Shown in pieces: positions 49,535 to 63,033 of a DNA stretch of 64,000 bases. The notes under the pieces were generated by a model. That model did no database searches and was not told where the DNA came from. It saw only the letters and a program-made list of their open reading frames with translations. The stretch spans positions 620,001 through 684,000 of the forward strand of contig NZ_CP020474.1 in assembly GCF_002080415.1 (NCBI RefSeq), read 5' to 3'. Source of the stretch: Roseovarius mucosus. GTDB taxonomy: Bacteria; Pseudomonadota; Alphaproteobacteria; Rhodobacterales; Rhodobacteraceae. Position 1 is the stretch's first letter, and each line of letters opens with the position of its first letter. The position numbers and the translations under genes are program-made.

Positions 49535-52500
49535 TCAGAGATCACGGGTTGCAAATGTACCGGCTCCGAAACTCGCTGAGAGCTGCGCCACTTCGATCCG
49601 TTTGCCCGCATCTGCCCCATCGGCCACGCGTGCCGCTTGCTGATAAACCCAATCCGAGCGTTCCAGAGTGACCTCGCGCAAGACCTGCGCCCCTCGCATC
49701 ACCCGCAAGAGATAGCGCTCGCTCTCCTCGCCAAGCGGCACCTCGGGCGTATCCCAACGATCCCCGCCAATCCGCGTGCGCCTGATCCACGTCACGGTCA
49801 AATCTCCTTGCGCCTCCATGAACCTCAGATGCACCGGCGCATAGGGTCGCAGGCCCACCCCATCAAAGGCCAAAATGGCATGGGCAAAGCTCGGGTCATC
49901 CACGGGTCGCCCCCCCGGCCCGATCCGGTAATGCAGCGCTTGCCCGCGCTGTGCCTCGGTCAACTCGATTTGCTGCGGCACGCCATTCAAGCGTACGACA
50001 AGCGATCCCGCAGGCCAGACACCACCGCCAGCCCTTTCAGTCCCCAACTGTCCCCGCAGCCGATGGCGCAGAATATACGTGTCCGGTGCCACCAACTCGG
50101 CATCGCGGAACTGAAACAGCTCCCACCCCCCCGGGGTGCCATCGCCAATGGCACAAAGATTGCCGCCATTCAAATGCGCCGTATCTCCCACGCTTTCCAG
50201 CGTCCCGAACCGCATCCGCACGAATAGCCCATCCCCCCGGTCGATCCGTCCCATCGGCGCAGGCAAAAGCGGCGTTTGCGTCACCCCTACCGTGCTGCGT
50301 GCCGCAATCAGGGTGTTAAGCCGGTAATCGGCATCCTCGGCGGACGAGTAAACCGCCGCCGTGCCGGGCCAGGGATTGGCCAGCACCGCGATATGCGGCG
50401 CATGCGGCACCTCATCGCCGGTCAAGAGCGGCAGATCAAGAAAGAGCGGCGTCACCGGTCCCGGTGCCACAAAGGGGCGCAGCCGCGCCGGGTTCTCTTC
50501 AATCAGGATCGGCCGATAGCTCTCGGGGTCGATCCGCACCGCATCGACACGCTGCGCATTGCCCATCTGCTCGATCCGGTCGATGCGGAACCGCGCGCCA
50601 TCCCCCCCTTGGGCAGGGCAATGACATCTCCTGCCCCAACGTCCAGCCGCGACGGCGGCAAGGTCAGGCGCAGCGTATCCACCGACACCCGCGCCTCCGA
50701 GAGCCACCGCTCCACCACTTGCCGCCCCTCAGAACGCGTCAACGCAAGTGGCATTTCCGAGGCTGCCACCGCATGGGTCGCCTCGTCGGGCAGAATGGCC
50801 TCTTCTGAAATCGCTTCATAGTCAGCATCCGCCTCCAGAAACCGCAGCCGCACCCGGCCCGCCAGCTCTAGATCGCTACTGCGCAATTCCTCGATGACGC
50901 CGCCCAATTCCGGATCGCGCACCACCAGATCAAGATCAACCACATGATCCGCCCGGCCATCGCGTGCACGAAATTGCAGCACGCCTTGCCGCTCGATCGC
51001 ATCCAGACCATAGGCCAGCATCAAGGGTTGCAAGGTCGCGCGCGCTGCACCCACCTGATCCACCAGAAACCCGCGCAAAAAGCCCTCAGTTCGGCTTGTG
51101 TCAAGATCACGCAGACCCGCCCGCGCCGCCACTTCTACCATGACATCCGCCAGCCGCCGCCCGCTGACCCGACCATTGATCCAATGCCCGCGCGCATAGT
51201 TCGCACCATCTGACCAAAGCTCGAGATTTCCCGGAAAATAGGGATAGGGCCGCGCATCCCAGGCCCAGACATAGGCGTGATCCATGTCGAGCATTCGCCC
51301 CGCGTATTCTTCGGACTGCGGATTGCGCGCCGGATCATTCCAATAGGCGGCCATGGCGCGCAGATATTGCATCTGAATCAGTTCATCCCGCTGCCCTGTT
51401 GAATGGCGGGGCAAACTTGATTCAGAAGATTTAGGGTCAAGAAACTTGTTGGGTTCATTGCTGCCCTTGTCCACCGCCGCACAGCCATATTCGGTGAACC
51501 GGATCGGTTTCGATTGCGGCACCCAGGCGGTCGGCTCTGACGCGCGCAGCCCCCCCACCCGCTCGAAATGCCGGTGTTCCCACCAGTTGCGCACGTCCTT
51601 GAACCGCCAGATCCAAGGCTCACCGAACGCGTCATCGGTGATCGGCACCCGGCGTTGCGCCGCGCGCGCCTCTGACGTGGGGTAAAACCAGTCATAGCCC
51701 TCGCCGCCCTCGATATTGGCTTGCAGATAGTCCAGGTCATAGATCGACGGCCAATCGCGCGCATCAAGATGCTCATCCCCCTCGCGCCAATCGCTGAGCG
51801 GCATGTAATTGTCGATCCCGACAAAATTGATATTGGCATCCGCCCACAGCGGATCGAGGTGAAAGAACCGATCGCCATTCCCCGGCTGATAGCCGAAATA
51901 TTCAGACCAATCCGCAGCATAGCTGATCTTGACCTCCGGTCCCAGCAGCGCGCGCACCTCAGCCGCCAAGGCAATCAACTGCACCACCGCCGGAAAGCTG
52001 TTATTCGCGCCCCGGATCTGCGTCAGGCTGCGCATTTCCGACCCGATACAGAAACTCTCGATCCCGCCCACAGCCGCACAAAGCGCCGCCTGATGCAGAA
52101 TGAAGCGACGATAAGACCATTCATCCGGCCCGTGATAGGCCACCGGGCTGCGCTTGAGCGCGCCACCAAAACTCAGAATGTCCAACGCGCCGGTTCCGGC
52201 GCTCTCCTCCACCTGCGCCGCAATCGGTGTCACCGTAAAATCCGCCGCGCGCGCGGTGCCAAAGAACGCCGCCACCTCTGCCTCTGCCGCCGCCGTCTGA
52301 TCCGGGCTGCCAACCTGCCCCGGCGCCTTGGATGTGGTGATCCGCCCGCGCCATGGCAGAATGGGCTGATCCTCGGCACCGCTCCACGGATCGGGCAGGC
52401 CGTTGCCCGGCATTTGCTCCATCAGGATGAACGGGTAGTAAAGCACGTCCTGCCCCGCTTGTTGCAGCGCCAGAATGGCCTCGATCACCGCCTGATCGGT

Positions 52501-53541
52501 CGGCGTGCCGCCATAAACCTCGCGGCCCTGCGCATCCTTGGGCACCTCACCTGCCCCTGAACGACCTAGGCTAGAGACCTGCCACGGCATGTTCGACGCC
52601 TCGAATTTCTTTTGCTCTACTCGTGGCCTGATCTGGCAAACTCCACAGCGCAGATCGTCGCCAAACCAGCTCACGATCAATGAGGTGGCCCGGCAGGCTG
52701 GCAATTCCTCAACCAGCGCCTCCAGCGCCGTCGCCATATCCGAGCGCCCTGAGGGGCTGTTGATATTGGCAATTCCGTTTGCGCCCAGACCGAAATTCAT
52801 TGTGACCGGCGTTGTAGCCAGCGCATATTCGCCCGTGCCCGGCAGCATCGCCACGCCCCGCACTGACCGCACCGGATCAAGCGCGGCACCCGGCGTCTCG
52901 GCCTGAGACGGGCGACACACCTCAAAACTGAACTGCGGCACACGATTGCCAAACTGCGAAATATCCAGATCCTCGATCACCACATAGGCCGTGCCACGAT
53001 AGGCGGGCACATTGCCCGCCCCCTCGACCGCCTCGATCCGAGGATCGGGCAATTGATCGCGCGCGCCCTTGTAGACCTGCATATTTAGGCTTGTAGGAGC
53101 GACCTCTGTTCCATCCGCCCAGATCCGCGCGACGCGGGTGATCTCCCCCTCGCAGAGCGCCAGCGCCAAGCTCACCGAATAGCTGATCGCGCGCGTGTCT
53201 GGCGTGGCGGGACGCGGATTGCCTTTGCCGCCCCCCCGGCTGCCCTGTGTTACGGTCACGTTCTCGCGAAACTCGGTGGCCCAGATCACCTGCCCGCCAA
53301 CGCGCATGCGCCCGTAAACCTGCGGGATGGCATCCCCCTCGCCCGCGCCAGTCAGGCGCAGACGGCTCACGCGCCCCGTCTCGACCACCTCCGATCCCTG
53401 GCCCAACAGACGTTGGTCAATCGAACGGCCAATAACTGCCCCGGCAAAGCGCCCAATCGCCACGGACGACAGGCCAAGCGCGGTGCCGCCCACCGCCCCG
53501 CCAATCGCGGCCCCTGCCGCAGATAACAGAATGGTTGCCAT
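49535..53541 (-). pseudogene. GTA tail-fibre/megatron protein g15, frameshifted
   Basis: Homologue of RcGTA gp15, the host-interacting megatron at the tail tip. As read, codons up to about residue 970 run in one frame and then stop at 50503, whereas the rest (ARFRIDRIEQMG through the end TFATRDL at 49535) continues in the -1 frame. The joint is at the run of seven G (50602-50608), where one base more or a -1 slip restores a protein of about 1335 residues. The start MATILLSAAGAAIGGAVGG with a glycine-rich segment is typical. Sequencing error, real mutation or programmed slippage cannot be told apart here. Confidence 0.82.
50602..50608 (-). other. Homopolymer run G7 at the g15 frame junction
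   Basis: The minus strand reads AAG GGG GGG ATG in the upstream frame and GGG GGG GAT in the downstream frame, so a -1 shift (or 1 extra base) joins them: LPKGG then DGARFRID. G GGG GGG is also a possible slippery heptamer. Prone to sequencing and replication slippage. Confidence 0.85.
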
Positions 53542-53544
53542 GTC

Positions 53545-53988
53545 TCAGCCCTCCTCGGGAAATGCAAATCGCGCCACAATGCGCCGCCGCCAAGGCGCGC
53601 TCAGCGCGGTCTCAACCACGCCATGCCCCGAATAGGCGTGAATGAAACTTGCGCGCGCGCCCAGTTCCGCGACCACGCCCAGATGTTTGGCAACCGCCCC
53701 CTCACGCATTCGAAAGAGGATCACGTCACCTGCCGCCTCTTCGGTCAAATCTTTTACCAGCAAATGCCGCGCCGCCGCCTGCCACAGCACCTCTTGCCGC
53801 GCCGGTTCTGACCAATCCATCGAATAGGCGGGGGGGCGTTCCGGCTCGGCACCGCACATCTCGCACCACAGGCCTCGCACCAGCCCCAGACAATCGCAGC
53901 CAGCCCCGCGACAGGCCGCCTGATGCCGATACGGCGTGCCGATCCAGCCCCGCGCCGTCGCCACAATCCGCGCCCCCTGCCCGCTCAC
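53545..53988 (-). CDS. GTA cell-wall peptidase g14 (NlpC/P60 family)
   Basis: 147 residues. The Cys-His catalytic pair of the NlpC/P60 fold is visible in GAGCDCLGLVRG (Cys about 32) and AKHLGVVAEL (His about 100). In RcGTA the equivalent tail peptidase opens the peptidoglycan during DNA delivery. It is 3 bases upstream of g15 and overlaps the end of g13 by 4 bases, so the tail-tip genes are co-translated. Confidence 0.92.
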   Translation of the reverse strand: MSGQGARIVATARGWIGTPYRHQAACRGAGCDCLGLVRGLWCEMCGAEPERPPAYSMDWSEPARQEVLWQAAARHLLVKDLTEEAAGDVILFRMREGAVAKHLGVVAELGARASFIHAYSGHGVVETALSAPWRRRIVARFAFPEEG

Positions 53989-54860
53989 CTGCGGCTCCCG
54001 CCATCCAGCCGCGGCGCCTTGCTGGGATCGGTAATCGTCCAGTCATCGCCAGGGATGTCCGGAAACCCTTGAAAGTTCATAAGATTGTCAAACTTGAACT
54101 GACAAGTCCCGCGACGCTTGTCGCACCCAGCCTCAATCCGCAGCGCATTACCGGGCATCACCTTAGCCCCTAGAGGATGCCAAAGCTCGATCACCCGCCC
54201 CGTGCCCTCGGTCCGGTCTCGCTTGATCAGCCCGATCAAGCCCGCCGCCGCGCCGCTCAAAACCCGGAGCACGCCGTGGCGAAACCAGTCTTCGGCAAAC
54301 CCGCCCATCTCAGCAAAGCGAAACACGCGGTTCTCCTCCACCTCCTCGGCGGGCCGCTCTGAAACATACCCCGGCGTATCCAGATCAAAGCGACAATCGC
54401 GATCCCCCAGAACGGCGCTGCACGCCTTTTGATAGACCCGCCCCAAGGGAACGTTGAGCGCGTCGGTCAGCCCGCGCAGCTCGGCCTCAAACGCCCCGCC
54501 CGCACGCCGCAACTCGCCAATGCTGCCGCGAAAGAGCAGGCGCCGCGCCGCCACATCCTGCCAGTTCACAAGCCACGCGCGCAGTTCCGCGCCGTCATAG
54601 CGCCCCGCCTCGATATCCGCCTCACGGATGGCGGCATCGTTCAGCGCGCCCAAGGCTTCGGTGTTGTCCACCGACAACCCCGTCGTCTGCTGCAAGGCCA
54701 AGGCGCTCAACCCGGTGTCGGGGCGAAACGCGATTCCCTCAAAGGCCAACAGCCGGTCGTGATCGGTGAACCCCATCACCACCCCGTCACGCCGCGTCAG
54801 CGCCCAAGCGCGGCAGGTGGTGGTCACACCTGTGCCAAGATGCTCCAACAGACCGGTCAT
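53985..54860 (-). CDS. GTA baseplate hub g13 (phage BR0599 / DUF2163 family)
   Basis: 291 residues. The N-terminal DUF2163 domain (LEHLGTGVTTTCRAWALTRRDG) and the C-terminal stretch with Cys residues in ACSAVLGDRDCRFD and CDKRRGTCQFKF are hallmarks of the RcGTA hub, where the paired Cys hold an iron-sulphur-like site. The gene overlaps g12 and g14 by 4 bases each (ATGA). Confidence 0.94.
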   Translation of the reverse strand: MTGLLEHLGTGVTTTCRAWALTRRDGVVMGFTDHDRLLAFEGIAFRPDTGLSALALQQTTGLSVDNTEALGALNDAAIREADIEAGRYDGAELRAWLVNWQDVAARRLLFRGSIGELRRAGGAFEAELRGLTDALNVPLGRVYQKACSAVLGDRDCRFDLDTPGYVSERPAEEVEENRVFRFAEMGGFAEDWFRHGVLRVLSGAAAGLIGLIKRDRTEGTGRVIELWHPLGAKVMPGNALRIEAGCDKRRGTCQFKFDNLMNFQGFPDIPGDDWTITDPSKAPRLDGGSRR

Positions 54861-55489
54861 ACTCGGATCTCCACCACCGGCACATTGGGCACCTCGCCCG
54901 CCTGAAAACTGGCAAGGCTGGTTTGAATGCGGTCCGTATCAAACCGCACAGGCACATCGAATTCATATCCCGCCGTGATCGGCACGCCGCGATTGGGCGG
55001 CTCGGAAAAGGTGACAATCCCGGTGGCGGTATCAACTGTGTAATGCACGCCGTCCTGCATCTCGACATTATCAAGACCTAGGCGCACCGTGCCCGTGACT
55101 GGCTTCACAATTGGCCGCAGTACGACCTGATCCCCTGACCGATAGGACTTGACCAGCGGAAAGGCGACAGTCGCATCATCGCCAACGCCAATTTCCTGAT
55201 CCCGGTAATCCGGCGCAGCCTTGGCCCGGCCCGATTTGAAATCAGTCCAATCCTTCCAGCGAAAGCCAAAAAGCTGCCCGCGCCGCGCCTCGAAAAACGC
55301 GATCAACGCCTCGATATCGTCCAGAGACCGAAGCGCCACACCCGCATCATAGCGTCTGCGCGCCTGCGCCCAAGGCGTGTTGCGCTCCTCGAACCCGTTG
55401 GCGAGCGTGACGATATCCGTCAACCGCTCCGGCCCGCCAAGCGAGCCGAAACTCAGGCTTGCCGGAAATCTGACCTCGTGAAATCCCAT
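54857..55489 (-). CDS. GTA distal tail protein g12 (DUF2460)
   Basis: 210 residues. MGFHEVRFPASLSFGS, GGPERLTDIVTLANGFEERN and the repeated beta pattern are those of DUF2460, the distal tail protein (Dit-like) of RcGTA, which connects the tail tube to the baseplate. Start 13 bases after g11 stop, end overlaps g13. Confidence 0.94.
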   Translation of the reverse strand: MGFHEVRFPASLSFGSLGGPERLTDIVTLANGFEERNTPWAQARRRYDAGVALRSLDDIEALIAFFEARRGQLFGFRWKDWTDFKSGRAKAAPDYRDQEIGVGDDATVAFPLVKSYRSGDQVVLRPIVKPVTGTVRLGLDNVEMQDGVHYTVDTATGIVTFSEPPNRGVPITAGYEFDVPVRFDTDRIQTSLASFQAGEVPNVPVVEIRV

Positions 55490-55502: not shown

Positions 55503-56144
55503 TCAGCGATTGCGCCCGCCGCGCCCGATCACGCGGCCCAGTTGCGCCGCGATCTGCCCTTGCGAGCGGCGAAACCCCTCGGCATCGGGGGTCTGGATAT
55601 TCATCACCACGCTTACCGCCCCGCCGCCCTGTGCGCGCACGCCCAAACGCCCATCCGGACCACGACTGAGCGGCATGATCGCCTCTGGTCCAGCCTCGCC
55701 CATCAATCCGGTGCCACCCCGCATCGGAAACATGACCGGACCATTCACGACGCCACCATTGGCAAAGGGCTGCACCCGCCCCTGCGAAAAAGACGCCCCC
55801 TTGGCAAAGGGGAAAAGCCCCCCCACCAAGCTGCCGATCCCCTGCGAAATCAGGCCACCAATTTGATCCGTCACCGGACGTGCAGCGTCGTTGAATGCGG
55901 TATTGACCATGATCGTGGCCAACCGCCGCAAACTGTCCGACAGGCCGTCGCCATCAACCACAGCCCCCCGGATGGCCCCACGCAGGCCCCGGCTCAGCCC
56001 CCGCTCCAGCGATTGCACATCCTGTTCGGCGCCGGCAAAGCCGCCCCGCACCCGCGCCAGTTCTGCACCAAAGGCCGCCGCCATACTGGTCGTCTGCCCC
56101 ATTGCATCATCAAGGGCGGCAATCTGCGCCTCCAATTCATCCAT
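55503..56144 (-). CDS. GTA tail tape-measure protein g11
   Basis: 213 residues, short as expected for the short RcGTA tail. A helical N-terminus (MDELEAQIAALDDAMGQT) is followed by a glycine-rich hydrophobic part (GGLISQGIGSLVGG) and the tape-measure ending GGTGLMGEAGPEAIMPL. The length of this protein sets the tail length. It overlaps g10.1 by 8 bases. Confidence 0.93.
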   Translation of the reverse strand: MDELEAQIAALDDAMGQTTSMAAAFGAELARVRGGFAGAEQDVQSLERGLSRGLRGAIRGAVVDGDGLSDSLRRLATIMVNTAFNDAARPVTDQIGGLISQGIGSLVGGLFPFAKGASFSQGRVQPFANGGVVNGPVMFPMRGGTGLMGEAGPEAIMPLSRGPDGRLGVRAQGGGAVSVVMNIQTPDAEGFRRSQGQIAAQLGRVIGRGGRNR

Positions 56145-56343
56145 CGCTCATCTCTCCTTTTCCATCGGGAAAGGCGCGCAAGAGCGCCTCCAATCCAGCG
56201 CGCGCCATCGGGGCCACGCCCTGCCGCTCCCCCAGCATCAGGCGCAATTCGACAGGCGTCAGCGCCCAGAACTCGGCTGGTTTAAGGCCCAATCCCTGAA
56301 GCCCCGCGCGCATCAACGCAGGCCAGTCAAACCGCCCGCTCAT
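56137..56343 (-). CDS. GTA tail assembly chaperone-like g10.1 (rcc01693 family)
   Basis: 68 residues from the ATG at 56343. FDWPALMRAGLQGLGL and KPAEFWALTPVELRLMLG match the rcc01693/TAC_6 tail-assembly chaperone family. It overlaps the end of g10 by 17 bases and g11 by 8. In many phages the equivalent pair uses a programmed shift; here the start codon is independent and no slippery sequence was seen. Confidence 0.92.
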   Translation of the reverse strand: MSGRFDWPALMRAGLQGLGLKPAEFWALTPVELRLMLGERQGVAPMARAGLEALLRAFPDGKGEMSDG

Positions 56344-56662
56344 GCGGCCCCTCTGGCAAGGCAAAGGCCCGCGCCAAAAGCTCTGCCGCCGCCCGCGCCG
56401 CCGCCAACGGCCCGCCTTCGATGTCGGCACTCTGCAAATCCGCCGCCGATCCGCGCCAGCCACCGCCACGCAGCCCCGCCACGATCAAAGCCAGCACATC
56501 GCGGGTGGAAAACGCGCCCCCTTCGAACCGCGCCACCAGATCGACAAGCGAACCGCTCGCCAACCCCGCCTCCAACTCGGCCAGCGCGCCCAGCGTAAGG
56601 CGCATCACCTGCCGCTCTCCGCCGATCACCAACGCCACCTCGCCTGCCCAGGGGTTGGCCAT
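56327..56662 (-). CDS. GTA tail protein g10 (GTA-gp10 family)
   Basis: 111 residues. MANPWAGEVALVIGGERQVM followed by LTLGALAELEAGLASGSLVDL is the GTA-gp10 pattern, linked with tail-tube assembly. It is 4 bases downstream of g9 and overlaps g10.1. Confidence 0.92.
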   Translation of the reverse strand: MANPWAGEVALVIGGERQVMRLTLGALAELEAGLASGSLVDLVARFEGGAFSTRDVLALIVAGLRGGGWRGSAADLQSADIEGGPLAAARAAAELLARAFALPEGPHERAV

Positions 56663-56666
56663 CGGA

Positions 56667-57080
56667 TCACAGCACCGTAAAGGTCAGTTGCCCCGCCGAG
56701 GCGAGCGCCAACTCATACGTCGCCTCACCATCATGGGTGCCGCCATATTCGATCGCCGTCACTTGGAAGGGCCCCTCGATGGTGCCAAAATCCGGGATCA
56801 CCACCTGAAAATCCGGCATTTCCCCATCAAAGAAGATCTGCCGCGCCCGCGCATCGCTTGTCGCATCGCGGAAAATACCCGATCCGCTGATGCTTGCAGA
56901 TTTCACACCCGCCCCCGCCAGCAATTCGCGCCACCCGCCCGCCGACTCAAGGCTGGTCACATCCACGCTCTCGGCGTTGAAACTCACGCGCGTGGCCCGT
57001 AGCCCCGCCACCGTCTGAAAATTGCCGCTGCCATTGAGGTCAATCTTGACCAGCAGATCCTTGCCATTCTGTACAGCCAT
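56667..57080 (-). CDS. GTA major tail tube protein g9 (TP901-1 family)
   Basis: 137 residues from the ATG at 57080, which has GGAG 8 bases upstream (a GTG at 57089 is the alternative). MAVQNGKDLLVKIDLNGSGNFQTVAG and the ISGSGIFRD segment are typical TP901-1/RcGTA tube proteins that stack as hexameric rings. About 24 bases separate it from g8. Confidence 0.94.
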   Translation of the reverse strand: MAVQNGKDLLVKIDLNGSGNFQTVAGLRATRVSFNAESVDVTSLESAGGWRELLAGAGVKSASISGSGIFRDATSDARARQIFFDGEMPDFQVVIPDFGTIEGPFQVTAIEYGGTHDGEATYELALASAGQLTFTVL

Positions 57081-57104
57081 TGTCGTCACTCCAGAGTTTA
57101 AAGG

Positions 57105-57518
57105 TTAAGCGCCATCATCCACGCGCGCCTGAAAGGTCAGCTCGATCCGCCGCGCCTGCCCAGCCGTTTCGCGCCGGGCGCGGGCACGCAGGAAATTAAG
57201 GCCGCTCACCCGCCCGCGAGTCAGCGTTAAGTCAGCATCCAGCAGCGCATCGCTGACAGCACCCGCCACGGCCTTGGCCTCTTGAAACCCGCCACTCTCG
57301 CTGACAACGGTGACGGTGAAGCGGTGCCAAGCCCCGCCAGCGCTGCCATCGCCACGTGCGCGAACCTCCTCAGGGCCAAGCATCACATAGAGCGGCGGCA
57401 CCCGGCCCGACGGCAGCGAATCATGAATCGCAGCGCCCACCAGCGCGCTTAATGCCACATCCTGCACCAGCCGTTGATACACTGCCGCCTGTAATCCTGC
57501 CGCCATCGCATAGCTCAT
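57105..57518 (-). CDS. GTA tail terminator g8 (DUF3168)
   Basis: 137 residues. MSYAMAAGLQAAVYQRL, LPSGRVPPLYVMLG and WHRFTVTVVSESGGFQEAKAV match DUF3168, the tail terminator ring. Overlaps g7 by 4 bases. Confidence 0.94.
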   Translation of the reverse strand: MSYAMAAGLQAAVYQRLVQDVALSALVGAAIHDSLPSGRVPPLYVMLGPEEVRARGDGSAGGAWHRFTVTVVSESGGFQEAKAVAGAVSDALLDADLTLTRGRVSGLNFLRARARRETAGQARRIELTFQARVDDGA

Positions 57519-57853
57519 GGCACCACCTCCTCTTGCGCCCAGAGAGACAGGTATCGCCCGCCCATATCCGCCTCTGTGACCGACAGGATTGCGAATTCGC
57601 GCGCACCATCGCGCAATCGGTTTCCGGCCTCTGGTCGCGACGCTGCCCCCTGCGGTGCAGCGCGCACCGTGATCCGATAGGCGGCCCGCGCCACAGCCGC
57701 GCCGCCCACCTCCGCCTCTCGGGCCGTGCGCGCGGCAACCTCAGCCCAAAGCGTGCCGCGCACCTCCCAGACTTCCGTGACACCCCCCGCCCCGTCGGAC
57801 AGACGCACCGCCGCCTCCAGCACGAGGGGCCGGTTCAGCCTCGGGCGCGCCAT
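57515..57853 (-). CDS. GTA head-tail stopper g7 (head closure protein)
   Basis: 112 residues from the ATG at 57853, whose A and T G overlap the g6 stop (ATGA). LSDGAGGVTEVWEVRGTLWAEV and YRITVRAAP are of the phage head-closure / Gp10-like family in RcGTA. Seals the DNA exit with g6. Confidence 0.92.
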   Translation of the reverse strand: MARPRLNRPLVLEAAVRLSDGAGGVTEVWEVRGTLWAEVAARTAREAEVGGAAVARAAYRITVRAAPQGAASRPEAGNRLRDGAREFAILSVTEADMGGRYLSLWAQEEVVP

Positions 57854-58452
57854 CACCGGGCACCCCCGCCCAACAGCCGCACCGTGCGATAGCGCTCGAT
57901 CAGGCTGGCCACACCAAAGGGCATGCAGCCGCTGCTCAGGCTCAGGTCATGTCGGTACTCGTAATAATGCGCCGCCAGCATCAACACGGCTTGCGCCAGA
58001 TCTGCGGGCAAATCCCCCCAACCCACGCCAAAGCCCGCGCGAAACCGAACCTCTGCAACGCCCCCGCGCACAATCACGGGCAGGAACGTGCCCACAGGCC
58101 GCAGCACAGGCCGATGCACATCCTGCTCCAGCCGGTAATGCGCGGGGTCAATCACCTCGACCTCATCCGCCCGGTTGCGCAACCCAAGGCTCAGCAGCGC
58201 CCGCACGGGTGCCACCGGCAAGGCCTGGCCTGTCGCATCCCTCCAGTGATGCACCGCCCAAGAAAATTCGCGCTCCAGCAAGACCTTACCGGTGCGCCCC
58301 TCAATCGCCGCCAGCGACGCACGCAGAAAACTTTCCAGAACCGGGTCCTGGATATCGTCATCGGCAAAGCCCGTGCCCAACCGCAGATGCGCCTTGAACT
58401 CCGCCAGCGGCAGCGCGGCCAGGGGCACCGCAGTTTCTTCGATTAACATCAT
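57853..58452 (-). CDS. GTA head-tail adaptor g6
   Basis: 199 residues. The start IEETAVPLAALPLAEFKAHLRLG and LAQAVLMLAAHYYEYR are found in head-tail connector (gp6-like) proteins of the GTA. It binds the portal and holds the stopper. Divided from the capsid gene by 149 bases with a strong hairpin. Confidence 0.93.
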   Translation of the reverse strand: MMLIEETAVPLAALPLAEFKAHLRLGTGFADDDIQDPVLESFLRASLAAIEGRTGKVLLEREFSWAVHHWRDATGQALPVAPVRALLSLGLRNRADEVEVIDPAHYRLEQDVHRPVLRPVGTFLPVIVRGGVAEVRFRAGFGVGWGDLPADLAQAVLMLAAHYYEYRHDLSLSSGCMPFGVASLIERYRTVRLLGGGAR

Positions 58453-58601: not shown

Positions 58602-59783
58602 TCAGGAAACGGCAAACTTCAAAAGCTTGATCGCCTTGAAATCGGACACATCGCCGCCCACTCGCTTGGTCGCGTAGAACAGGACATGCGGCTTGGCGCT
58701 GTAGGGATCACGCAACACCCGCAAATCCGGGCGCTCGGCCACCGTGTAACCGGCATTGAAATCGCCAAAGGCGATGGCATTGGCCCCGGTCGCGATGTCG
58801 GGCATATCCTCGGCGATCAGCACCGGATAGCCCATCAGCCGCGCAGGTTCTCCGGCGGCCAGACCATCCGACCACAGGAACCGCCCATCGGCATCCTTCA
58901 TCTTGCGAATGGTGCCTGCGGTTTTGGAATTCATCACGAAGGTGCCGTTCGCCCGGTACTGCGCGCCCAAGGCATAGACCAGATCAACAATCGGATCAGG
59001 CCCCGAAATCGCGCCCGCAACACCGGTGGGCACATAGCCAAGATTACCCCAGACCCAGACATCATTGTCCACATTCGGATGCGTCAGGAACCCGCGCGGC
59101 TTGTCCACCCCATCGCCCGCAACGAACGCCGCCGCCTCGGCGCGCGCGAACTTGTCGGCGATGCGCCCCGCAAGCCAGCCCTCGACGTCAAAGGCGCTGT
59201 CATCCAGCAACCGCTGGCTGGCCTTGGGCAACGCGCTCAACTCATGTAGCGGGATACTGATGCGGTCGATCACCGGCGTATCGCTCTCGGATACTGTGCC
59301 GCTTTCCGTGGCCCAGCCATGGCCCACATCGGTGTGATCCACCAGCACATCAAAGCTGGTGGCCTCGACCGCCACCACATTGGCAACCGCCCGGATCGAC
59401 GCGGTGGACTTCAGCACCGAGCGGATCGTCTCGGCGGTTTGCGGATCGACCAGATAGCCGCCCTCCCCCGCGATGGCGGTATTGAGCGCCTTGCCCTCCA
59501 ATTCGAGGCCGCGCAGCCCGTCATCGTCGCCACCGCGCAAATAGGCGTCAAACGCCTTGCGATGCGGCGCAGAGCCGTCAGAACTGGCCGCCAGATGCGG
59601 ACGCGCAAGCGCGATGGATTTGCGTTCAAACATGTTCATTTTCTCTTCTTGCTGTTGCAGTCGGTTGTGAATTTCGGCCCGAAAGCCGCTGAATTCGCTC
59701 AGAAACCCCGCCACTGCGGATTTCACCTCGGCCACCGGAGACAGATCTTCCCCGGCCCGAGCCTTTGCTTGGGTCATCATCAT
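58602..59783 (-). CDS. GTA major capsid protein g5 (HK97 fold)
   Basis: 393 residues. A coiled-coil delta/scaffold region (about 1-100, EIHNRLQQQEEKMNMF) is cleaved by the protease after assembly; the HK97 core begins near LNTAIAGEGGYLVDPQTAETIRSVL. GHGWATESGTVSESDTPVIDRISIPLHELSALPKASQRLL and the GLEFVMNSKT-like NGTFVMNSKTAGTIRKMKD are classical. The start is one of three Met codons in a row. Confidence 0.95.
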   Translation of the reverse strand: MMMTQAKARAGEDLSPVAEVKSAVAGFLSEFSGFRAEIHNRLQQQEEKMNMFERKSIALARPHLAASSDGSAPHRKAFDAYLRGGDDDGLRGLELEGKALNTAIAGEGGYLVDPQTAETIRSVLKSTASIRAVANVVAVEATSFDVLVDHTDVGHGWATESGTVSESDTPVIDRISIPLHELSALPKASQRLLDDSAFDVEGWLAGRIADKFARAEAAAFVAGDGVDKPRGFLTHPNVDNDVWVWGNLGYVPTGVAGAISGPDPIVDLVYALGAQYRANGTFVMNSKTAGTIRKMKDADGRFLWSDGLAAGEPARLMGYPVLIAEDMPDIATGANAIAFGDFNAGYTVAERPDLRVLRDPYSAKPHVLFYATKRVGGDVSDFKAIKLLKFAVS

Positions 59784-59816: not shown

Positions 59817-60374
59817 CTACACCTGCGCCATCTCCCGGCGGGCCGCGTCGAACGCCGCCGCCATCTCGCGCAGGGCTTGGGCCTCGGGGGCATCGCCCTT
59901 GGCCGTCACCCGCGCACTGGGCAGCATCGGGAAGGTCACCAGCGACACTTCCCACAGCTCCAGTTCCGTCAAGAGCCGCTGGCCCTTGTCATTCTTCACC
60001 GCGCGCAGCGTCCGGTATCCAATGCTGAGGCCATCAATCGCCCCCGCCGCGATCAGCGCTGCCGCCTCACGCGCACGCGCGACACTCCCCAAAAGCCGCC
60101 CCTTGACCCACAGACCCCGCGCATCCTCGCGCACCTCATCCCAGATGCCGATCGGTTGCGCCGGATCATGCTGCCACAGCATCTTGACGCGCCGCCCCTC
60201 CTTGGCCAGCCGCCCGAGAGAGGCCGCATAGGCCCCCCGCTCGACAATATCACCACCCTGATCGGGCGCGCCAAACAGGCTGGCGTAGCCCTCGATCTGC
60301 CCCGCCTCGCTCACGCTCAGCACCGCCCCATCCAGACGCGCGAATTTACGCTCCAGCCCTGTATCCATGTCCAT
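59817..60374 (-). CDS. GTA prohead protease g4 (HK97 family)
   Basis: About 185 residues; start at the ATG at 60374 (60383 and 60368 are alternatives). The S78 protease core has IEGYASLFGAPDQGGDIVERGA, MLWQHDPAQPIG (catalytic His) and the Ser in IDGLSIGYRT. It trims the capsid scaffold domain. It lies 33 bases upstream of the capsid gene and 24 downstream of g3.5. Confidence 0.93.
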   Translation of the reverse strand: MDMDTGLERKFARLDGAVLSVSEAGQIEGYASLFGAPDQGGDIVERGAYAASLGRLAKEGRRVKMLWQHDPAQPIGIWDEVREDARGLWVKGRLLGSVARAREAAALIAAGAIDGLSIGYRTLRAVKNDKGQRLLTELELWEVSLVTFPMLPSARVTAKGDAPEAQALREMAAAFDAARREMAQV

Positions 60375-60397
60375 CTGTCTCATCCTTTCGCTCTGCC

Positions 60398-60643
60398 TCA
60401 CCCCGGCAACACCGCCAAAAGCGGCTGAAACGCCTGCGCGAGGATCGCTGCCACCACACCGTAAACCGCCAGCCACAATCGCCGCTCCAGCCGCTCCAAG
60501 GCCGCCTCGGTGCGCTCCAACCGCTCGGTCATCGCGCGGGTCTGAAACTCTGAAACCCGCTCATGCGCCTCCATTCGCAGCCCCGGCGCACAGTCGAACG
60601 CCTCGAACCCATAGCGCGGCGGCGGCACTCCCCGCTCAGCCAT
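60398..60643 (-). CDS. GTA head formation protein g3.5 (rcc01685 family)
   Basis: 81 residues from the ATG at 60643. MAERGVPPPRYGFEAFD, a helical middle (ERLERTEAALERLERRL) and a C-terminal hydrophobic segment are of the small RCAP_rcc01685 family that is always found next to the portal. It overlaps the end of g3 by 8 bases. Confidence 0.9.
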   Translation of the reverse strand: MAERGVPPPRYGFEAFDCAPGLRMEAHERVSEFQTRAMTERLERTEAALERLERRLWLAVYGVVAAILAQAFQPLLAVLPG

Positions 60644-61826
60644 TGACCTCCTCCGCCGCCAGTGCAGGCAGTCCCAAAAGGCTGCGCTTTTCTCCATCGC
60701 TCAGAAAGTCTGCCCCACTCACCCGTGCCCATTGCGCATCACGCTCCGCTGCCAGCGCCGGCACCTGATCCAGATCGGGAACAAGGTCCAACGCCTCGCC
60801 GCTCATCCGCCCCAGCCAGGCCGATACCGTCGCAGCCACCCGCATGGCCAAAGGCAACACCGTCAGCCGATAAAACGCACGGTTGGCCTCCTGATAATTC
60901 GCGAATGTCGCATCGCCGGGAATACCGAGCAGCATCGGCGGCACGCCAAAGGCCAGCGCAATCTCGCGCGCCGCGCTTTCCTTGGTCTTCTGGAATTCCA
61001 TGTCCGATGGGCTGAACCCCATCGGCTTCCAATCCAGCCCGCCCTCTAACAGCATCGGCCGCCCGGCATTGCGCGCGCCCTGATGATGCGCCTCCATCTC
61101 GCTGACCAGCCGGTCATATTGATCGCCAGACATCGCCCCCTGTCCCTCCGGCCCCTTATAGACAATCGCACCCGAGGGGCGCGCCGCATTGTCCAAAAGC
61201 GCCTTCGACCAACGACTTGCCGAATTATGCACATCCACCGCCTGCGCCGCCGCCTGCAATGGCGACAGCCCATAATGGTCGTCCTGAGGGTGAAAGGTCT
61301 TGATATGACAGACGCAAGGAACGCCCTCGCGCACATCGAACCGATGCTTGCGCCCCGCCACGGCATATTCATAGGCCACGGGCCAGCCATCCGCCCCCGG
61401 CACCACGCTCATCCGGTCAGAGCGCAGCACATGCAGCTCCAACGGCATGCCCCCCGCGCCCACCGCCTCGATATAGGCATTGCCCGTCAACAAGAGCTGG
61501 CCATAAAGCGCCTCAAAAAGCTCCGCCCGCCCCTGCGCCGGATTGGGGCATTTGATCAGGCTCAGCACCGGATGGACGGCAAAGCGCTGCTCAGAATTCT
61601 GCAACACCAGCGGCAGCGCCGCCGCCGCCTCAGCAATCATCTTCACACAACGAAACCCCACCGGATTCCCCGAAAACCCGGTGCGCGTCAGGCTGACGGT
61701 ATCGCGCGGGCTCCAGGCCACACGCCCCGCGCCATGCCACGCCATCACACGGCCAGCCGCGCTTGCCTTTTGTTCGGGTGCCGCGTCGGGTGCACCGCCC
61801 CCTTGCCGGAAAAAATCCAGTATCAT
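60636..61826 (-). CDS. GTA portal protein g3
   Basis: 396 residues, HK97-type portal length. GFSGNPVGFRCVKMIAEAAAALPL, HPVLSLIKCPNPAQGRAELFEALYGQLLLTGNAY and FQKTKESAAREIALAFGVPPMLLG are portal hallmarks. It forms the dodecameric DNA gate and normally docks the large terminase. It is the first structural gene here; the usual upstream g1-g2 terminase genes are missing. AAGGAGAG 7-14 bases before the ATG. Confidence 0.95.
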   Translation of the reverse strand: MILDFFRQGGGAPDAAPEQKASAAGRVMAWHGAGRVAWSPRDTVSLTRTGFSGNPVGFRCVKMIAEAAAALPLVLQNSEQRFAVHPVLSLIKCPNPAQGRAELFEALYGQLLLTGNAYIEAVGAGGMPLELHVLRSDRMSVVPGADGWPVAYEYAVAGRKHRFDVREGVPCVCHIKTFHPQDDHYGLSPLQAAAQAVDVHNSASRWSKALLDNAARPSGAIVYKGPEGQGAMSGDQYDRLVSEMEAHHQGARNAGRPMLLEGGLDWKPMGFSPSDMEFQKTKESAAREIALAFGVPPMLLGIPGDATFANYQEANRAFYRLTVLPLAMRVAATVSAWLGRMSGEALDLVPDLDQVPALAAERDAQWARVSGADFLSDGEKRSLLGLPALAAEEVNG

Positions 61827-61894
61827 CGCGTTACTCTCCTTGATCCCGCTGACGCCGGGCCTCTTGCCCGCTTGAGAGGCATCAGACCGTCAAA

Positions 61895-61913
61895 GGTTTA
61901 AGGAAAGTAAACC
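61895..61913. promoter_or_regulatory. Inverted repeat upstream of the portal gene
   Basis: GGTTTA-N7-TAAACC: perfect 6-bp arms 7 bases apart, 69 bases before the portal start. The inner part TTTA-N7-TAAA recalls the spacing of CtrA half-sites (TTAA-N7-TTAA) but is not the same. Likely operator for the GTA structural genes. Confidence 0.5.
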
Positions 61914-61932
61914 AGACCGAGCGGGCCAGCGC

Positions 61933-63033
61933 TCAGACCCCCAAAGCCTCGCGCAACTCCGCCAGACGCGAGCGGCTGACAGGCGTGGTAACATCTTGCC
62001 CGCCAAGGCGAAAATAGCACAGCCCATTGTCCTTACGCCGCTCGAAATGCGAGACATGCGCCGGATTGACCAGATAGCTACGATGCACCTTAAGGAACGG
62101 ACCGGGGCTCAACCGCCGCTCGGCCTCGGTGATTGACCACGTGCAAAAATGCTTGTTGGCCCCGGTATAGAGCAGCGTGTAATGCCCCTCGGCCCGCAAA
62201 AACGCCACATCACGCGCGTCGATGAAATGGGTCTGCCCGTGGTGCTCATAGGGAATGCGCTGCAAGACTTGGACGGGTTTGACCTCTGCCTCAACAGGCA
62301 AAGCTCCCTCCGCTTTGGCCCCCTGCGCCAGAAACGTGACCCCCGTCAGCAAGAACGCCCCGCACAGAACAAACGAACTGACCAGCACCCCCAGCGCCAA
62401 AACCTCATTGCCCATCAACGGGCCGATCTCCTGCGCCGTTGGCACTGCCACAAACCGTGTGCCGAACACCGCCGCGAAATGCACAAGGAACACGGCAAAG
62501 CCAAACGCCAATGTGCCCAGCAGAATATTGCGCGGCCGCCGCTGACCATAGGCCACCCAAATCGCCGCCACGCTCAGCCCACAGGCGGCCAGCACCGCAA
62601 ACACCACCCCCGGCAGCGTATAAACCGCCCGGCAAAGCTGTAGCCCAGACATGCCCAGATAATGCATCGCCACAATGCCAAGACCGATGACACAGCCCGC
62701 CGCCGTCAGGCTTGCGCGCGTGCGCGGGTAGAAATGCAAGAGCAGCAGCGCCGCCCCTACCATCAGGATTGCAATCAGCGCCGATCCCAGCGTGATCATC
62801 GCATCGTAGTAAATCGGGATCGGCAGTTGCAGCCCCAGCATCGCCACGAAATGCATCGACCAGATGCCACCACCCAACGCAATCGCCGCCAAGGTCACGG
62901 AAAGTTTACGCATCGCTACGGGTTGCGCCGCAATGCCACGGGTCAGCGAAAACCCGGTAAAGGCTGCCACAAGCGACACGCTCAGTGACGCAACGACCAA
63001 CCAGAGATTATGCGAATACTCCAGAAATTCCAT
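61933..63033 (-). CDS. MHYT-domain membrane sensor with LytTR DNA-binding domain
   Basis: 366 residues. Seven or so membrane segments (about 1-245) hold the MHYT repeats (SMHFVAM about 59, AMHYLGM about 123, VHFAAV about 184), thought to bind copper and sense O2, CO or NO. The C-terminal LytTR domain (about 265-366; HFIDARDVAFLRAEGHYT, KVHRSYLVNP) binds DNA. The architecture equals that of CoxC/CoxH near CO-dehydrogenase genes. It stands 107 bases upstream of the portal gene on the same strand. Confidence 0.93.
   Translation of the reverse strand: MEFLEYSHNLWLVVASLSVSLVAAFTGFSLTRGIAAQPVAMRKLSVTLAAIALGGGIWSMHFVAMLGLQLPIPIYYDAMITLGSALIAILMVGAALLLLHFYPRTRASLTAAGCVIGLGIVAMHYLGMSGLQLCRAVYTLPGVVFAVLAACGLSVAAIWVAYGQRRPRNILLGTLAFGFAVFLVHFAAVFGTRFVAVPTAQEIGPLMGNEVLALGVLVSSFVLCGAFLLTGVTFLAQGAKAEGALPVEAEVKPVQVLQRIPYEHHGQTHFIDARDVAFLRAEGHYTLLYTGANKHFCTWSITEAERRLSPGPFLKVHRSYLVNPAHVSHFERRKDNGLCYFRLGGQDVTTPVSRSRLAELREALGV

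Follow-up and report, generated by a model that had tools for sequence, protein, structure and literature searches.

The GTA gene cluster of the window

The DNA analysed here (the window) is a stretch of 64,000 nucleotides of the Roseovarius mucosus genome, C1:620001-684000, in an assembly of 4.38 Mb and three contigs. At 49.5-61.8 kb, on the minus strand, it contains the genes g3 to g15 of a GTA of the type of RcGTA (from Rhodobacter capsulatus, a type I alphaproteobacterial GTA); g1 and g2 are missing there. The features are the following.

61933..63033, minus strand, MHYT-LytTR regulator gene (PF03707, PF04397), a neighbour and not a part of the GTA
61877..61930, minus strand, P3, conserved promoter-like element before g3, between regulator and portal (matrix score 74.5)
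60636..61826, minus strand, g3, portal protein (PF04860 Phage_portal, 9.2e-88; PDB 6tba, the RcGTA portal Rcc01684, 1.4e-181)
60398..60697, minus strand, GTA head formation protein, RCAP_rcc01685 family (NF048001, 2.1e-30)
59817..60476, minus strand, g4, prohead protease (TIGR01543, PF04586)
58602..59783, minus strand, g5, major capsid protein (PF05065, 7.4e-88)
57853..58452, minus strand, head-tail connector (TIGR02215)
57515..57856, minus strand, head completion protein (PF05521)
57105..57518, minus strand, tail completion protein (PF11367)
56667..57089, minus strand, g9, tail tube protein (PF06199)
56327..56662, minus strand, gp10-type protein (PF11836, GTA-gp10)
55503..56144, minus strand, g11, tape-measure-like protein (PHROG tail length tape measure profiles; no match in a Pfam search)
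54857..55489, minus strand, g12, distal tail protein, Rcc01695 family (TIGR02217)
53985..54860, minus strand, g13, baseplate hub (TIGR02218)
53545..53988, minus strand, g14, NlpC/P60 peptidase (TIGR02219)
49535..53541, minus strand, g15, two overlapping frames, 50503-53541 and 49535-50707 (GTA_TIM, Phage-tail_3; Rcc01698_C in the second frame)

The profile matches run in sequence from the portal through g15, in agreement with the canonical order of g3 to g15 given in the first-pass annotation. In RcGTA, g1 and g2 head the structural cluster, and this trait of the RcGTA-type layout (g1-g2 directly before g3, which is usual rather than defining) is absent here. A 107-base gap and an MHYT-LytTR gene had been described before the portal: the regulator gene is present, and the gap is of 106 bases and holds P3. 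Past the end of the window, the regulator is followed by two FMN/FAD oxidoreductases and MTTB.

A homologue of the MHYT-LytTR gene is found in 13 of the 20 genomes searched. It adjoins the portal in 6 of them and is elsewhere in the other 7, on which ground we rejected the idea that the regulator is an insertion into an otherwise intact cluster. A terL gene close outside the window, cut off by the insertion of the regulator and flavoprotein genes, was also rejected: no terL was found just beyond 64 kb, where the ORFs tested in the next 12 kb encode oxidoreductases, MTTB and other proteins, and neither the genome search described below nor the placement of the regulator supports it.

The terminase genes after trpA

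Whole-genome searches with Terminase_6N and Terminase_6C each give one place only, the same gene in one frame at C1:4.10 Mb, so that the window contains no terminase. The absence of g1 and g2, first proposed from the window alone, is thus confirmed by the genome-wide profile search that the first-pass annotation had suggested, and the single TerL lies outside the window. The g1-like gene and an intact TerL gene, with both domains, occupy C1:4,100,834-4,102,454, at 218 bases after trpA. The g1-like gene is an ORF of 116 aa which overlaps the TerL start; it has no match in a search of family profiles and is the counterpart of g1, judged from its position and from this overlap. A search of the PDB with the TerL sequence gave no match. 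The flanks consist of trpA on one side and of a comF-like gene and dnaB on the other, with no phage genes, and ctrA is about 4 kb from g1-g2. The window cluster is 3.4 Mb away along the contig; on a circular contig the shorter way would be about 0.75 Mb.

Of the outcomes envisaged at first pass (relocation, loss or a changed function), relocation is the one supported, as a GTA-type terL is found with a g1-like gene on the same contig and under purifying selection. Loss of TerL is rejected since the whole-genome searches recover it intact. An insertion of g1-g2 between neighbouring trpA and comF genes was considered and rejected as well: trpA and comF are adjacent in none of the 19 relatives searched, where they are on one contig and more than 100 kb apart (5 genomes) or on different contigs (14 genomes), so that the comF side seems to have been rearranged later.

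According to the accessible text of PMC7947584, a Cys at position 292 of RcGTA, and usually a Pro at position 282, mark the TerL proteins of GTAs. In an alignment of 84 TerL rows, Cys315 is present in all 84 and Pro305 in 73, including 19 of the 19 split rows (those in which TerL and portal are apart); these residues were equated to RcGTA 292 and 282 from their 10-residue spacing and context rather than by aligning the RcGTA protein. The Walker A motif, the DE pair and the acidic residues of the nuclease, which we take to be catalytic, are kept almost without exception in the same alignment.

Among the species that have the trpA site in common, dN/dS is 0.086-0.109 for TerL and 0.081-0.142 for g1, to be compared with 0.057-0.061 for the portal and 0.064-0.074 for trpA in the same species; in the group of the window strain, constraint is seen on all four of TerL, g1, portal and capsid, with dN/dS of 0.04-0.14. 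At the other split sites, pN/pS is 0.10-0.34; the high values involve L015, and TerL of the third site reaches 0.34.

The closest named relatives of TerL, among the best 80 of 581, are from a Roseovarius MAG (94% identity) and Roseovarius sp. 217 (90%). TerLs of the genus reach 94-95% identity to that of the window strain, and the 256 phage records matched are all below 60%. The strain's own group of five is recovered in TerL-only and portal-only trees alike, as are a group of three (support 78 and 98) and the third split group together with the joined locus L025. A clade of 38 rows forms one group in the TerL tree (support 93) and does not in the portal tree. From sequence, these data indicate an intact TerL of the GTA type, on which purifying selection acts at the new site; the terminase has been relocated and kept, and it is very likely in use.

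Split and joined loci in Roseovarius

Among 84 genomes of the genus, a TerL match is found in 78 and a portal match in 71. By our reading, 67 genomes have both, some of them damaged: TerL and portal are neighbours on one contig in 50 and apart in 17. The distance is about 10 kb in G077 and G081, 48 kb in G040, 88-89 kb in G034, G023 and G058, 319 kb in G008 and 3.4 Mb in the window strain; in the 9 remaining genomes, all drafts, the two genes are on different contigs, with a flank on at least one side that lacks the partner (G049 was judged from its neighbours trpA and MHYT). Regarding the 80 named TerL loci (the best 80 of 581), the portal is close behind in 66, about 10 kb away in 2 and outside the examined flank in 12. 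Outside the genus set, Thalassococcus profundi and Carideicomes have an intact portal elsewhere; the portal of Roseovarius aestuarii is broken.

On a TerL-portal tree of 84 rows, of which 19 are split, the split label changes at least 6 times, and 4 of these changes are forced by well supported branches; this count does not separate gain from loss of the split. The single-gene trees give 5 and 7 changes. These trees indicate that the packaging and virion units have separated more than once. The joined locus L025 sits within the third split group, which calls for either a rejoining or a split of separate origin there.

The part which moved is not always the same. In the strain's own group of five, the packaging unit lies after trpA. 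In G035, G076 and G083 it lies at the place that it has in the joined R. marisflavi and R. lutimaris, so that g3-g15 must have left, and in another split group it is in a third neighbourhood. In G042, g3-g15 adjoin the neighbours of the second packaging site, that of G035, G076 and G083. Across these groups the mobile part therefore differs, with packaging genes having moved in some splits and virion genes in others. The two units of G034, G023 and G058 are in facing orientation, which would be the outcome of an inversion. The g1 gene adjoins g2 in 16 of the 16 split loci of the Roseovarius clade that were tested; its match is weak in L046 (37%) and there is none in L086.

We also note that three drafts (G044, G063 and G064) have a portal match and no TerL match at 1e-20; G064 retains P3 and a run of genes that starts at g3 and extends at least as far as the one for tail completion.

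A promoter-like element before each unit

The element P1, before g1, has the consensus ACTTGACTTTGCGCACGGTTTCGCGTATAGGTTGTGACATGCTGGA. With the 99th percentile of 500 random windows as the threshold, it is matched upstream of 65 of 87 TerL genes, from several genera; the 22 others include eight joined Roseovarius loci and the split Roseovarius loci L030 and L045. P1 carries a GCGCRCGGT box between -35 and -10, and TATAGG at the -10 offset. Its pattern occurs once in the genome of the window strain at up to 3 mismatches.

P3 is 54 bases long and ends 28-74 bases before g3 in the clade. In the window its pattern is found with 0 mismatches at 61880-61919, and nowhere else in the genome when up to 3 mismatches are allowed; the reversed control gives 0. 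The P3 matrix, built from 15 loci among which is that of the window, passes in 38 of 38 loci of the Roseovarius clade, joined or split, including 23 of 23 untrained ones. Outside the clade it passes in 10 of 39, five of them above the highest of 1000 null windows. Two loci outside the clade are split and have no clear P3 (G084, score -6.5, little above the threshold of -8.4, and G086, -24.9), which means that P3 is not a condition of splitting everywhere, or that the promoter of these loci is different.

Compared by eye, P3 has the same GCGCRCGGT box as P1 and a -10-like hexamer at the offset of TATAGG, and it has no -35. The P3 matrix has no strong match before g1 at any locus, the best score being 2.2 (L063). 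This likeness of sequence suggests that both elements may be promoters on which GafA acts.

In joined loci, P3 begins within the end of g2 in 8 of 21 cases and is 32-1270 bases away in the other 13, staying near g3. Together with the split loci, these layouts range by degrees from overlap to complete separation, and the break is between g2 and P3 wherever it can be read in the clade. In the clade, then, g1 and g2 stay together, each unit has a conserved promoter-like element of its own, and P3 is in place before g3 even where the loci are joined.

The leader of g1 and the gafA-like gene

A hairpin of -15 kcal/mol or below that ends at a T run, hence a predicted terminator, is present in 59 of the 65 P1 leaders, versus 12 of 1300 control windows. 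In an alignment of 59 leaders (L026, L028, L031, L043, L046 and L167 are left out of the 65), 88.8% of the cells pair and 17 of the 21 pairs vary on both sides. The observed level is not attained by any shuffle out of 500, and slid structures yield 43-56%. In two of the 21 pairs failures are frequent (29 and 21 of the 59 rows). RNAalifold alone gives 5 pairs; the 21-pair structure was first read from single-sequence folds and then counted, so that the count leans towards that structure. Its outer stem closes over the T run. A search of Rfam gave one sub-threshold match, to ctRNA. The covarying predicted terminator behind the boxed promoter ranges from Rhodovulum to Roseovarius.

The window strain has a gafA-like gene (395 aa; DUF6456, E 3.2e-59) about 30 kb further on from g1-g2 and ctrA; DUF6456 is presumably the C-terminal domain of GafA. 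In the late control of phage lambda, the site of the antiterminator Q is between the -35 and the -10 of the promoter, and a terminator lies early in the leader. P1, with its box between -35 and -10 and its predicted early leader terminator, resembles this arrangement at the level of layout only.

A LysR gene separates the gafA-like gene from lipA, near which gafA is located according to the accessible part of PMC6363796, and a CtrA-like TTAAC-N6-GTAAT, a type of site taken from the same text, is seen by eye before the gafA-like gene. As far as the accessible text of PMC9638019 goes, GafA of R. capsulatus binds a fragment with the -10, the -35 and the start site and contacts the omega subunit of RNA polymerase. 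The accessible text of PMC11150451 describes GafZ of Caulobacter as an antiterminator whose element, GCGCCCG-CTGGCGC in CcGTA, is between -10 and -35, and it names the lambda-type late control by Q; its authors, Tran and Le, mention that GafA of R. capsulatus might have an unrecognised antitermination activity. The box GCGCRCGGT of P1 and P3, which in P1 is between -35 and -10, resembles the GafZ element by eye. Both systems have a terminator further downstream, that of Roseovarius being predicted from sequence, but the terminator tested in CcGTA (same source) comes after the first gene, whereas here the hairpin is in the leader, before g1; CcGTA also uses two proteins, GafY and GafZ, whereas the GafA-like protein is encoded by one gene. 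The layout of P1 fits GafA as an antiterminator, which makes this a candidate role.

A GTA probably carried in two chromosomal units

We consider it likely that this RcGTA-type GTA is carried in two chromosomal units, a packaging unit after trpA (P1, the g1-like TerS gene and g2, encoding TerL) and a virion unit in the window (P3 and g3 to g15), and that the split is tolerated, the particles being assembled in trans. P3 would allow g3-g15 to be transcribed without P1, so that rearrangements which break between g2 and P3 would be tolerated; a promoter-like element of its own on each half probably made the separation harmless. Assembly in trans would depend on a common regulator, probably GafA. 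More weakly, the leader terminator might hold P1 off and GafA might override it.

Three other explanations can be confronted with this one. The terminase at 4.10 Mb could be that of a prophage, or captured from a phage, after the GTA lost its own and came to make empty or repurposed heads. It is indeed 3.4 Mb from the portal along the contig, but its neighbours are trpA, the comF-like gene and dnaB rather than phage genes, it has the GTA-type residues, phage TerLs are all below 60% identity, far from the values within the genus, and for the own group the trees of TerL and portal agree. The traits of a prophage terminase (adjacent phage genes, close phage relatives) are therefore lacking, capture from a phage is rejected on these grounds, the sequence analysis gave no support to empty or repurposed particles, and we regard this explanation as extremely unlikely. 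The split could also mark the beginning of decay, if Roseovarius is losing the GTA and the separated or broken genes are what is left of it. In the present assembly g15 changes frame near 50602-50611, inside a G run, so that the GTA of this strain may be damaged, or the assembly wrong; fusions of TerL with g15 without a portal (8 of 84 genomes of the genus), the deletion of g3-g14 in G020 and the broken portal of G001 also point in this direction. On the contrary, TerL, g1, portal and capsid are constrained in the own group, and g15 is in a single frame in the close relatives G034, G023 and G058, which all have the same split. Decay is, in our opinion, an unlikely explanation of the split.

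Last, the relocation could be adaptive, if packaging genes near ctrA and gafA gained a different timing or gene dose. The proximity of g1-g2 to ctrA in the clade, with the gafA-like gene of the window strain about 30 kb further, is in favour of it, but the packaging genes are at other sites in other splits, and one group has its g3-g15, rather than the packaging genes, displaced. From this variety, the position near trpA and ctrA looks incidental, and we find an adaptive relocation very unlikely. Regarding the two-unit reading itself, a broader version can be proposed, that the GTAs of Rhodobacterales are switched by GafA-dependent antitermination at the terminator of the g1 leader, and that P3 frees the head-tail genes in Roseovarius, leaving two separately controlled modules which drifted apart several times. 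This version is possible, and we put it forward tentatively, as a doubtful one.

Relation to known systems

This GTA is ordinary in its parts and unusual in its layout, and the separation recurs in Roseovarius. Like RcGTA, it has a homologous portal, the same order of head-tail genes and a g1-g2 pair; unlike in RcGTA, g1-g2 form a separate locus with a promoter-like element of its own, and P3 precedes g3. The genes of RcGTA are scattered over five loci (accessible text of PMC9662315), so that there is a precedent for a GTA with several loci. Our literature search, whose reach left out many subscription papers, gave no description of a detached GTA terminase in Roseovarius, nor of a leader terminator before g1. 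In its accessible part, PMC7947584 classes terL genes by the number of nearby GTA genes, so that split genomes may be present in its data.

Surveys which require linked GTA genes could score split genomes as terminase-less or partial, even if all parts are present. The repeated split means that the GTA separates in the way of any host genes, which would be expected once an element is domesticated and has ceased to move as a block. The wider interest lies in the control region: a covarying leader terminator behind a boxed promoter is what GafA antitermination would predict, which makes the question of GafA testable.

Fusions, deletions and other layouts in the genus

In 8 of the 84 genomes of the genus (G014, G066, G018, G045, G046 and G012, loci L173-L178, plus G017 and G026), the TerL match ends at about residue 184 within an open frame of 840-893 aa, and there is no portal match. 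At loci L173-L178, that is, in 6 of the 8 genomes, the ATPase part of TerL runs directly into the last third of g15; a single large deletion has fused the two genes in frame. Four close relatives compared with one another give a pN/pS of 0.10-0.19 for the entire fusion and 0.07-0.13 for its TerL part, so that the chimera looks to be under selection; when L173 and L175 are included, pN/pS is 0.37-0.42, with pS near saturation. In G020 (L166), g15 lies about 1.1 kb after TerL and the portal was not found in the genome. In G001 (L181), residues 1-123 of the portal run into g15 from its residue 835, with a stop. Other layouts also place trpA near GTA genes: it is head to head with the portal in Carideicomes (L183), and in G008 and G042 about 16 kb separate the two.
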